DNA from: Microbotryomycetes sp. JL201
Lineage: Eukaryota; Basidiomycota; Microbotryomycetes
DNA: 36,130 nt
Direction: 5' to 3'
Assembly (NCBI GenBank): GCA_033819885.1
Contig: JAQYUZ010000072.1
Span: 1 to 36,130 of the forward strand
Part shown: piece after piece, positions 3,855 to 36,130 of the stretch
Layout: each line of letters begins with the position of its first letter
Numbering within the stretch: the first letter of the stretch is position 1
The notes under the pieces: generated by a model
Database searches by the model: none
The model's input: the letters and a program-made list of their open reading frames with translations, nothing else
What the model was told of the DNA's origin: nothing
Position numbers and translations under genes: made by a program

Positions 3855-5196
3855 ATGCTCACGCGTGCTATCGCTCGCTCTCAAGCCACTGCGCGACACT
3901 TGACCCCAGCTGCACCTGTCATCGCTTCAAGATACATGTCGTCGACATCCGCTGCACGAGCGCACATCAACAAGGTCACAGTGTTTGGCGTCAGTCGCGC
4001 GTGATTTGCCCCGCTTGGACGAGCTGCTGATACATTGCATCTTGACTGCCATGTCCTTACCTTTAGGCTGGTCTGATGGGCGCTGGAATCGTCCAAGTCG
4101 CCGCTCACAATGGTATCAAAGTGGGCAAGTCTCGTACCCGCGTCTTCCTGTTCGGAAAGTCACGTGCAATCATCTAACCGAACTCTTTCGCGAGTCAGTC
4201 ATGACGGATGTTTCGGATGCCGCACTCGACAATGGCAGGTCAATCATCACGAAATCGCTGACGCGCGTCGCTCGCAAACTTCATCCCGACAACGAAGCCG
4301 AACAAAAGAAGTTGATCGACGCCACGTTCAGCAACATTTCGACAACGACATCTGCCGCCGAGGCAGTCAAAGATACAGACTTGGTCATTGAAGCGATTGT
4401 TGAAAATTTGTCGACAAAACAAGAATTGTTTAGAAGGTTGGACGAGTTGGCGCCAAAGCACACCATCTTTGCCAGCAACACGAGTTCGTTGAGCATTGCA
4501 AAAATTTCGGAAACGTGTTCGCCAGAGAGGCAAACAAAGTTTGGTGGCTTCCACGCTTTCAACCCGGTCCCTCAAATGAAGCTCGTGCGTGCTCGTCTGT
4601 TTTCGGTGGACAGGATTAATTCTCTGACCGCACACGCAAATGCAGGTCGAGATCGTGCGCACGGACAAGACGGACGAAGAAACACGAGAGGCGCTGCTCG
4701 ACGTGTGCAAACGGATGAAAAAGACGCCTGTCAACTGCAAAGACACGCCAGGGTCCGTAATTCGACACCCGATTCGTACCTAGAAGGCTGACCTTGCCTC
4801 CTTGAACTGAATCGCACAGTTTTATCGTCAACCGCTTGCTCGTACCGTACATGCTCGAAGCTATTCGCATGGTCGAGCGTGGCGACGCATCCGCTGAAGA
4901 CGTCGACACCGCTATGAAGCTAGGCGCGGGCTTGCCCATGGGTCCCATCGAGTTGAGCGACTTTGTCGGGCTCGATACGCTGTCATTCATCGCAGAAGGA
5001 TGGAGGAACGAACGCGTGAAGACTGGAGAGATTGACGAAAAGCAGGTCGAGACGGTCAACATTCTCGACAAACTCGTCAAGGAGGGCAAAAAAGGGCGCA
5101 AATCGGGCGAAGGATTCTTCAAATGTGAGTACACCTACGATTGAGACGATGTGTTGGATCGATACGACTAACGCGATGCCCACGGTAACAGACTAG
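3855..5196 (+). CDS. 3-hydroxyacyl-CoA dehydrogenase, mitochondrial
   Basis: Exons 3855-3989, 4067-4124, 4199-4584, 4646-4752, 4820-5124, 5192-5196; 331 aa. The enzyme oxidises L-3-hydroxyacyl-CoA to 3-ketoacyl-CoA with NAD+ in beta-oxidation (HADH / 3-hydroxybutyryl-CoA dehydrogenase family). The N-terminus ([16 protein letters not shown]...RYMSST) is a typical mitochondrial presequence. The NAD motif [13 protein letters not shown] is split by intron 1. ASNTSSLSI and [15 protein letters not shown] follow, the latter carrying the catalytic His and Glu of the family. The C-terminal domain has [13 protein letters not shown] and [13 protein letters not shown]. The last exon supplies only the end of ...GFFKY plus the stop. 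Intron 2 (4125-4198) begins GCAAGT, a GC donor; the join gives KV|VMTDVSD in frame. The acyl-CoA synthetase gene converges on it from the other strand, 127 bp away. Confidence 0.93.
4125..4198 (+). other. GC-AG intron in the hydroxyacyl-CoA dehydrogenase gene
   Basis: The donor is GTGG|GCAAGT and the acceptor GTCAG|TCATG. Joining them restores an uninterrupted frame through the segment after the NAD-binding motif. No GT donor nearby does so. Confidence 0.75.
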
Positions 5197-32987: not shown

Positions 32988-33819
32988 ATGCTGATCAAAG
33001 TCAAGGTGCGTGCGCTTGGCAGGTCTCAATGTCGTGTTGTGAGCCAAAATACGCTGACAACATGTTACGTAACGTTCCCTATACGGCGTCCCGCGATGCT
33101 CACGTCACCGCTCGACACTGTGTGAACCGCATGCCATCCATGCGGCCGACGTCAAAGACCCTGACGGGTAAAGAGGTGAGAATGCATAGTCCATAGCGTG
33201 CTCATGCTGTCTCGCTTCGTGCACGGAGCCTCTCGCTGATCCATGCGCTGATTCTCGTCGACAGATTGAGATCCCGATTGAGCCACACTACACAGTACGT
33301 GATCATCTTTTGTTCCGGATGACTCTCACTGGCGGGACTCGGCGGCTGCTTTTGACCTGATAAGCCGGCTCGCATTCACGGACCGAGCCAGCGCAAACGA
33401 CAAGGCTTTGCCATGTGTCGCTATATTCGCCACCAATTACCGGATCCTTGGGATCAAATAAACCAGTTGCGACGTGTTGACTGCCTACCAGGCCGCACCA
33501 GTCGTGCCCGACATATATGAGAGGTGGTGGCGCGCTCGTACTGACGCAAGCCCATCCGTTCTCATCGGTCTTCAACAGTCTGCAAAGATCAAGGAAACTC
33601 TGGAAGAAAAGGAAGGCATCCCGCCACCGCAGCAGCGACTCATCTTTGGCGGCAAGAGTCTGTGAGTGGCAAGGCGCTGCCAATCTGAATCTCAGACTGC
33701 TGACGCTGACCTTATCTTTGGCGGCCAACAGGCCCGATGACAAGACGGCAGAAGAAATGAAAATTGCACCTGGTTCAACATTGCATTTGGTACTGAGCTT
33801 GCGAGGAGGCAGACGATGA
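32988..33819 (+). CDS. RUB1: NEDD8/Rub1 ubiquitin-like modifier, five exons
   Basis: Exons 32988-33005, 33158-33175, 33265-33294, 33579-33661, 33732-33819; 78 aa. NEDD8/Rub1 is conjugated to cullins to activate SCF-type ubiquitin ligases. The joined protein reads MLIKVK|TLTGKE|IEIPIEPHYT, then SAKIKETLEEKEGIPPPQQR and LIFGGKSL, then PDDKTAEEMKIAPGSTLHLV and LSLRGGRR. It matches NEDD8 residue for residue in spacing, and the diglycine falls at 75-76 as in NEDD8. Two extra Arg after the glycines must be removed by a Yuh1/UCHL3-type hydrolase. Within the family, Ala at position 72 separates NEDD8 from ubiquitin (Arg); here the residue before LRGG is Ser, not Arg, which also fits Rub1 rather than ubiquitin. 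The first three exons total only 66 nt, so gene finders will often miss them. Confidence 0.9.
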
Positions 33820-34780: not shown

Positions 34781-35324
34781 TTAGTGCTTGGCCGACTCCT
34801 TGTGGGCCTCGGCCTTGGCGGAGCTGCAAGGAAAGCAATGTCAACTCAGAATTAACTTCATTGCGATGAATCTCAGCCAGATACTCACTGCTTGGACTCG
34901 TCAAGCTTGTCAGAGGCGGCACTCAGGCCGGCAGAGGCGCGCTCAGACAAAGAGGCGTCAGTGTTGCCCTTGGCGACCTCCTACAAATGGTCAACGGGAT
35001 CTCCAACAGTTCAGTATAGTGCAGCACTCGCAAAAGGGTTGCCACGAACCTTGTTCTTCTCCTTGGAAGCGCCCGAAGCTGCCTCCTGCACAGACTCGGT
35101 GACATAATTGACGGCGTCCTTGGCCTTGTCAATGATGCCGCCAGAGGTGGTTGTGTTCTGCTCAGGTAGCACTAGTGGTCAGCAACCGTGGCGCGCCACT
35201 CGCGGGCCACCGGTGACGTAAGTGCCCGGCTCTGCAGACTTGCCGTGGTGGATGCCACTGTGCAGTGAAGTCAATGTACTGTCAGTCACATAGTTTCACA
35301 ACTGTTCGATCAGTCAGACTCACT
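34781..35324 (-). CDS. GRG1/CCG-1 glucose-repressible protein, paralogue A
   Basis: Exons (minus): the A of ATG ends exon 1 at 35324; then 35257-35244 (14 nt), 35157-35050, 34980-34889, 34823-34781; 85 aa. GRG-1/CCG-1 proteins are small, hydrophilic, abundant stress and starvation proteins, clock-controlled and glucose-repressed in Neurospora; the biochemical role is unknown. The protein reads MASTT|NTTTSGGIIDKAKDAV, then NYVTESVQEAASGASKEKNK|EVAKGNTDASL and ...KLDESKH|SAKAEAHKESAKH, matching the family's ASGASKExNKEVAK core and KH ending. Intron 1 cuts the start codon after A. Intron 2 (35243-35158) has a GC donor (ACG|GCAAGT). No ATG exists in the unspliced leader just before the coding part, which supports this start. 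It is head-to-head with paralogue B. Confidence 0.85.
35258..35323 (-). promoter_or_regulatory. Leader intron that splits the start codon (A|TG)
   Basis: The donor is AAGAAA|GTGAGT and the acceptor CTGCACAG|TGGCATCC. The A before the donor and the TG after the acceptor form the initiator. The resulting N-terminus MASTTNTTTSGG aligns with paralogue B (MSATTNSSTSGG). Confidence 0.75.
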
Positions 35325-35949
35325 TTCTTGTGTTCGAACGGAGTGTAAGGAAGAAGGAGGAGGTGTTTCCCAGCTCGTCCAAAGGGGCTTTCATCCAACT
35401 TGGAATTGCAGACGTCACTGCCGATTTGCCGGTCACCTGATTGCCAAGCGGTCAGATCACGACATTCCTTGAGCTGCCTAATACGACACTTCGCAGTTGG
35501 TAATAGGGCTCGACTTGCTACCAAGGACTCGATGCATATAGGGGTCCAAGACATGTAACACAGACCTTCGCTTCAGCTCTAGCCACATAAAGTGTCATCA
35601 AAGCTCTTGTGCATTAGTTGAGCGCAACACAACAACATTCCCAGCGCTCGGAAGACGCTGCCGTCTGAGCTCGAGCCTCACTTATCGCCTCAGACACGAC
35701 GCGACGCGTTCATCGTTGTCAACACGTGACTACAAGAACTTCACGCTGCCTGCATGCGCATTCAGCTGAGCGTGTCAGAGCGGGACATCGTCTCGCGCGA
35801 GGCTCGTTGCCGACTGCGGGCTGACGCGGATTGCCTCTTCTTGTGCCAGAACCTCGTCAGGCTTCGAAAGCTGGCAGTGACTCTCTCTTTTCTACACCAC
35901 AGGCTTGCCTTTGACTTTAACTTACACGCCTACCTTCAACAAAAGAACA
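35325..35949. promoter_or_regulatory. Divergent promoter shared by two GRG1 paralogues
   Basis: This 625-bp region separates the two start codons and includes both 5' leaders. AGGGG stress-response-like pentamers occur at 35383-35387 and 35540-35544, with a TATA-like GCATATA beside the second. A CACGTG E-box is at 35723-35728. These fit stress- or glucose-controlled expression, but this is inference from short motifs. Confidence 0.5.
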
Positions 35950-36130
35950 ATGTGAGTGAAAAATGACACGTCAGCTGACGCCACCACTGCGACGATAGGA
36001 ACACGCCGGGCAACCGGCAAACAAGCTCATAGTCGCTGACACAGACGCACTTCCCCTGGCTCGCAGGTCTGCCACTACAAACTCTTCCACCTCTGGCGGC
36101 ATCGCCGACAAGATCTCGAACGCTGCCAAC
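35950..36130 (+). CDS. GRG1/CCG-1 paralogue B, cut off by the window edge
   Basis: Only the start is in the window: AT (35950-35951) from exon 1 and 36067-36130 from exon 2. The joined frame reads M, then SATTNSSTSGGIADKISNAA and N, clearly paralogous to the start of GRG1 paralogue A. The intron (35952-36066, 115 nt; donor GTGAGT, acceptor CTCGCAG) interrupts the start codon between T and G. In unspliced RNA the same AT is followed by GTGA, giving AUG-UGA, an immediate stop. The rest of the gene lies beyond 36130. Confidence 0.8.
35952..36066 (+). promoter_or_regulatory. Leader intron that splits the start codon (AT|G)
   Basis: The donor is AACAAT|GTGAGT and the acceptor GCTCGCAG|GTCTGCC. 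A branch-like CTGAC lies within. The position differs by one base relative to the start codon from the intron in paralogue A. Confidence 0.75.

Follow-up and report, generated by a model that had tools for sequence, protein, structure and literature searches.

Can the start codon of a gene come into being only when an intron is removed and, if so, is such an arrangement kept as a device for making translation depend on splicing? The question is raised by one end of a contig from the basidiomycete yeast Microbotryomycetes sp. JL201. The window analysed here is the whole of this 36,130-nt contig (C70; JL201 genome, 17.15 Mb, 92 contigs), which includes two paralogous genes, A and B, each with an intron falling within its predicted initiator ATG. 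Paralogue B, a small gene of stress type, cleanly illustrates a start codon that probably arises only through splicing. Split start codons show how annotation goes wrong on such genes and, if intron retention were regulated, would offer a simple way to tie translation wholly to splicing. Our preferred reading, to which we give a probability of roughly 0.8, is that paralogue B is an ordinary Grg1 gene with a phase 2 spliceosomal intron in codon 1 and that splicing creates its start.

The first codons of paralogues A and B

The leader of paralogue B (...CAACAAAAGAACAAT) ends with the bases AT at 35950..35951 (+ strand), directly followed by a GTGAGT donor. The predicted intron 1 (35952..36066, +) is 115 nt long, reads GTGAGT...CTCGCAG, lies in phase 2 of codon 1 and carries a branch-point-like CTGAC at 36036..36040 (+), assigned by consensus match only, whose first base is 31 nt from the intron 3′ end. 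Beyond the acceptor, GTCTGCCACTACA opens exon 2 (36067..36130, +), which supplies the G of ATG, then SATTNSSTSGGIADKISNAAN, and is cut by the contig end. The AT joined to the G TCT GCC that follows the CAG acceptor gives MSATTNSSTSGG, and the junction of 35951 with 36067 reads on as ATG TCT GCC ACT ACA..., that is MSATTNSSTSGGIADKISNAAN, to the contig end. This join had been proposed in an earlier reading of the DNA (the sequence-only reading) and is borne out by the GTGAGT, the 115-nt length and the CAG found at 35952-36066.

No other start presents itself readily for this frame. It is shut upstream by a TGA at 35878, with no in-frame ATG between this stop and the AT, and the only other ATGs within 400 nt upstream, at 35553 and 35754, are both in another frame. 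The ATG at 35754 opens an ORF of 70 codons plus stop (35754..35966, +) which spans the split start out of frame and would matter only for transcripts that begin further upstream. Methionine is absent from the probable continuation of the protein (P0008, see below) and from the interior of the paralogue A protein, and for paralogue B an upstream ATG combined with a weaker donor is possible. It is likely that the start codon of paralogue B is assembled by splicing of an ordinary intron, and its protein can probably be made solely from spliced RNA.

Chance placement of such donors was estimated with 20,000 first-order Markov samples, in which an AT|GTRNGT donor occurred 42–160 nt 5′ of a given acceptor in 0.8% of cases and an A|GTRNGT donor in 4.6%. 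The motif ATGTRAGT is not enriched in the window (2 seen, 1.71 expected). Its second copy, ATGTGAGT at 5123, was considered as another split start and rejected, as it appears, by eye only, to be an ordinary coding donor.

Paralogue A lies on the − strand, to which all the following coordinates refer, and is described by a five-exon model encoding an 85-aa protein. The last base of exon 1 (35324..35324) is the A of the start codon. It is followed by intron 1 (35258..35323; 66 nt, GTGAGT...CACAG), in phase 1 of codon 1 (A|TG), and by a 14-nt micro-exon (35244..35257; TG GCA TCC ACC ACG) whose residues match P0001, P0005 and other homologues. Intron 2 (35158..35243; 86 nt) is of the GC-AG type (GCAAGT...GAGCAG), exon 3 occupies 35050..35157, intron 3 34981..35049 (GTTCGT...TTGTAG), exon 4 34889..34980 and intron 4 34824..34888 (GTGAGT...TTGCAG), and the last exon with the stop lies at 34781..34823. 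Canonical signals that join the parts of the ATG are thus present in both genes, GTGAGT...CAG with CTGAC in B and GTGAGT...CAG in A. The 14-nt micro-exon between the start-codon intron and a GC-AG intron is found in A and not in B.

The paralogue A protein (13% K, no internal Met) belongs to the Grg1 (glucose-repressible protein) family, PF11034, with 91.9 bits against a curated cut-off of 25 (E 2.8e-26; profile positions 2-67 of 67). The 22 residues of paralogue B within the window match no Pfam family when taken alone, and they resemble the N-terminus of the Grg1 family. Their continuation is most simply sought in OIV83_006563 (P0008), a partial JL201 protein of 84 residues listed with PF11034 and encoded on a contig of 577 bp. 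P0008 begins SATTNSSTSGGIADKISNAAN, at residue 2 of B, and runs to a normal Grg1 C-terminus. Within the 92 contigs that include the window, only residues 1-21 of P0008 have a fully identical match, at 36068-36130, the other matches being 38-67% identical, and its start at S2 is what is expected from an exon opening with one leftover G. On the most economical view, P0008 is the remainder of paralogue B, judging by these 21 identical residues and by the pattern of the assembly rather than by a joined contig. Many microbotryomycete members of the family have 85 aa, compared to 71 aa in many ascomycete ones.

The AUG-UGA of unspliced RNA

In unspliced paralogue B RNA the AT reads into the intron as ATG TGA (35950..35955, +), exactly as the sequence-only reading had stated. 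It had also proposed that this minimal start-stop would block translation of retained-intron RNA; a separate, selected device is not supported. Wherever AT precedes a GTRA donor, the unspliced RNA necessarily reads ATG TRA and so meets a stop; the AUG-UGA is therefore not independent evidence. It is also redundant in paralogue B, since a retained intron of 115 nt shifts the frame anyway and P0008 has no Met. The next ATG after the ATG TGA, at 35963, opens an ORF of only 11 codons. At the corresponding place in paralogue A the unspliced junction is AAAGTGAGT and contains no AUG; an ATG TGA within intron 1 of that gene (35286..35291, −, the A of ATG at 35291) lies 32 nt inside the intron, off the junction. 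The idea that the same trick operates in both paralogues consequently applies to the split codon itself, which is A|TG in A and AT|G in B, and fails for the AUG-UGA. The latter is, in our interpretation, mostly a by-product of AU preceding a GURA donor.

How often this by-product should arise depends on the share of GTRA among donors. A small automatic set, built with simple coding models from 236 kb (the window and 20 stretches of 10 kb), included 12 introns in a first attempt and then 22, with GTRA donors in 6/12 and 11/22 respectively; these counts are of low confidence, and so few and uncertain introns serve for a rough GTRA share only, not for a genome-wide rate of split starts. Among ten GT donors read directly from A, B, a third Grg1 gene (copies counted once) and a NEDD8-like gene, six are GTRA: those of introns 1 and 4 of A, intron 1 of B, the last intron of the third Grg1 gene and two introns of the NEDD8-like gene. 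With about half of donors being GTRA, roughly every second AT|G split would give an AUG-stop by default.

The first codon in homologous records

Recurrence of the split was assessed in 85 protein records, comprising all 42 of a first listing and 43 from a second, in which 79 of the best 120 (of 696) were new; the 43 were picked by name, mostly from Microbotryomycetes, and scored by eye. In 52 records Met occupies its expected position; 41 of these start there, and 11 carry it behind an extension. Behind an extension, 13 records have another residue in its place (R, T, R, L, S, E, W, E, R, K, S, R, L), and three are partial from residue 2 (P0008, P0028 and P0190, the last on a contig of 86.9 kb). 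The remaining 17 could not be scored, the region being missing or different. The 13 and the three come from Rhodotorula toruloides, Sporobolomyces blumeae, S. phaffii, S. carnicolor, S. pararoseus, S. ruberrimus and S. johnsonii, Rhodosporidiobolus lusitaniae, Microbotryum saponariae, NB124-2 and JL201.

An intact ATG in exon 2 would spare a gene finder from replacing Met, which suggests that the split extends beyond JL201. To our knowledge, gene finders are generally unable to model a split start codon, and these 16 records probably carry a wrong or missing N-terminus. We found no paper on gene finders and split start codons among the best-ranked titles and abstract openings of the open-licence literature, nor, in the same scope, one on a Grg1 gene with a split start codon. 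Within a single annotation series of S. blumeae, P0169 has the Met while P0012 and P0037 do not, so that either the paralogues or their annotations differ, and some homologous genes may have an intact ATG. As judged from protein records, conservation of the split may be mosaic, and universal conservation is unsupported given the 52 records of 85 with Met in place. Three records of 'merc' source (P0019, P0176, P0187), with Met behind an in-frame leader, are compatible with either a split or an intact ATG. Scans of genome contigs (71 matches) and viral contigs (302 matches) with the family alignment returned none that encodes a relative.

All 13 substituted residues can be encoded by a codon of the form NN|G, and this fit was considered as proof of a phase 2 split. 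As proof it turned out weak: 85% of extension residues fit as well (null p 0.125), and neighbouring positions fit in 11/13, 12/13 and 10/12 cases. What stands is the absence of Met at precisely this position. A phase 1 split (NTG) is compatible with 2/13 of the substituted residues.

The records nearest to paralogue A, P0001 (NB124-2) and P0002 (JL221), keep the Met behind extensions. That of P0001 is MSGDRK, and by eye S G D R is also encoded in JL201 upstream of intron 1, at about 35440-35429; in JL201 the codon before TCA GGT GAC CGG is CAA, not ATG. It seems that the P0001 gene model reached for an upstream exon, as would be expected if its Met were not intact in NB124-2. Alternatively, a real longer N-terminus in P0001 and P0002 would fit, their extensions SGDRK and SGDK being alike.

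Two further features of the records were seen in passing. In R. toruloides P0003, P0004, P0163 and P0164, two tandem Grg1 genes are apparently fused in one model (by eye), perhaps through failure to detect the start of the second gene. P0175 and P0179, named Adineta steineri and Rotaria sordida (bdelloid rotifers), are Grg1-like with two repeats and possibly reflect horizontal transfer or contamination.

Alternative readings and genomic setting

If paralogue B is an ordinary Grg1 gene with an intron in codon 1, splicing would join AU to G and so produce the only AUG found for the N-terminus of the family. Ribosomes would then translate the spliced RNA into an 85-aa protein, and RNA retaining the intron would give no Grg1, as its frame is without a start. 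Protein output would be wholly dependent on splicing through the position of the intron. We expect splicing of this intron to be constitutive, and an intron so near the cap may be kept for general reasons (early introns, high expression) and not as a switch, although a regulatory role is possible.

A selected role would go further: the intron within AUG and the AUG-UGA would be maintained because they prevent unspliced RNA from being translated, possibly together with regulated retention. This we consider unlikely. Conserved splicing-licensed translation had been the central suggestion of the sequence-only reading, and part of it stands, in that both paralogues need splicing, split the same codon, at a different base, and have relatives whose models break at that codon (16 of 85 records, including R. 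toruloides, several Sporobolomyces, Rhodosporidiobolus lusitaniae and Microbotryum saponariae). The 52 records with an in-place Met speak against its conservation. The AUG-UGA results from the donor, is missing at the junction of A and is redundant with a 115-nt read-through which would shift the frame of B regardless. We would place little confidence in the still more specific proposal that the Grg1 family of Microbotryomycetes keeps an initiator-codon intron so as to confine translation of these stress/glucose genes to spliced RNA, its regulated retention acting as an on-off switch leaving no peptide.

The start of paralogue B might instead lie at the ATG at 35754, with another donor (e.g. 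GTCAGA at 35774) spliced to the same acceptor and an N-terminal extension as the result. Six such models keep the frame open, with a GT donor in one and GC donors in the other five, and annotators have chosen models of a similar sort in relatives (P0012, P0026, P0027, P0032). The candidate donors are, however, further from GTRAGT, the extensions of the 13 Met-substituted records are unalike (by eye, unaligned) while residues from 2 on are conserved, and Met occupies its usual position in 52 of the 85 records, 41 of which begin with it; this start is very improbable. That the B fragment is a broken copy, or a product of misassembly, at the contig end is scarcely to be believed. C70 does end within paralogue B, the sequence for P0008 is on a separate 577-bp contig, and exactly 77 bases on its promoter side recur at the end of contig C79, as in a k-mer overlap, but P0008 carries the frame on to a normal Grg1 C-terminus and the splice signals of paralogue B are intact.

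The preferred reading, an ordinary intron that splits the start codon, has precedents. In the parts of the article available, a 2026 study of Yarrowia lipolytica treats as a class 42 introns whose 5′ splice site lies right after the A, T or G of the start codon (PMC13309789). As in JL201, these are fungal 5′ splice sites directly following a start-codon base; in contrast to our sequence prediction in a distant basidiomycete, they are derived from transcriptomes and linked to high expression, and the figure of 42 pools positions after A, T and G, with no share for A or T alone in those parts (PMC13309789). According to the accessible sections of Nielsen and Wernersson (2006), many phase 0 introns lie directly after ATG in genes for short lysine-rich proteins, and introns that disrupt the start codon are relatively rare (PMC1626468). 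Paralogue A likewise has its first coding intron at codon 1 and encodes a short lysine-rich protein, but their peak concerns phase 0 introns after ATG whereas the JL201 introns lie within it (PMC1626468). Start-codon introns are already known in fungi, though uncommon, and paralogue B probably adds a case.

A minimal AUG-stop in a 5′ leader is also known from Arabidopsis NIP5;1, where, in the portion of the article at hand, AUGUAA in the 5′ untranslated region triggers boron-dependent stalling and mRNA decay (PMC11915504). The likeness to paralogue B is confined to the AUG-stop itself, which in B would be present only in unspliced RNA. The Rhodotorula intronic promoters, described in the sections seen for FAS1 and LDP1 with a first intron in the 5′ UTR, have no bearing on split starts (PMC5124236).

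The setting of the two genes was examined as well. The window encodes a MYND protein identical (100%, 597 aa as queried) to OIV83_006317 (P0043) of JL201, and no hits were obtained in the window with Rfam (gathering threshold) or in a tRNA scan. A gene at 32988-33819, which we take from its sequence to be NEDD8/Rub1-like, has at least five exons, two of them of 18 nt (hand-made model with one stretch unresolved). Its first intron follows 18 coding nt, so that an intron close to the start is not special to Grg1 in this window.

The 77 bases shared with the end of C79 (35739..35815, +; C79:25382-25458; L009 1501-1577) are as would be left by a k=77 assembler at a repeat, a sign that the promoter side of paralogue B is present at least twice. 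A 21-kb contig, C80, carries at both ends near-identical 3′ exons of the third Grg1-like gene (L005 1-255; L006 1648-1394), in opposite orientation and pointing inwards; these are probably recent inverted copies at which the assembly broke. We infer that the Grg1 complement of JL201 consists of one A gene, probably two of B type and another two copies, and that the assembly broke at these places.
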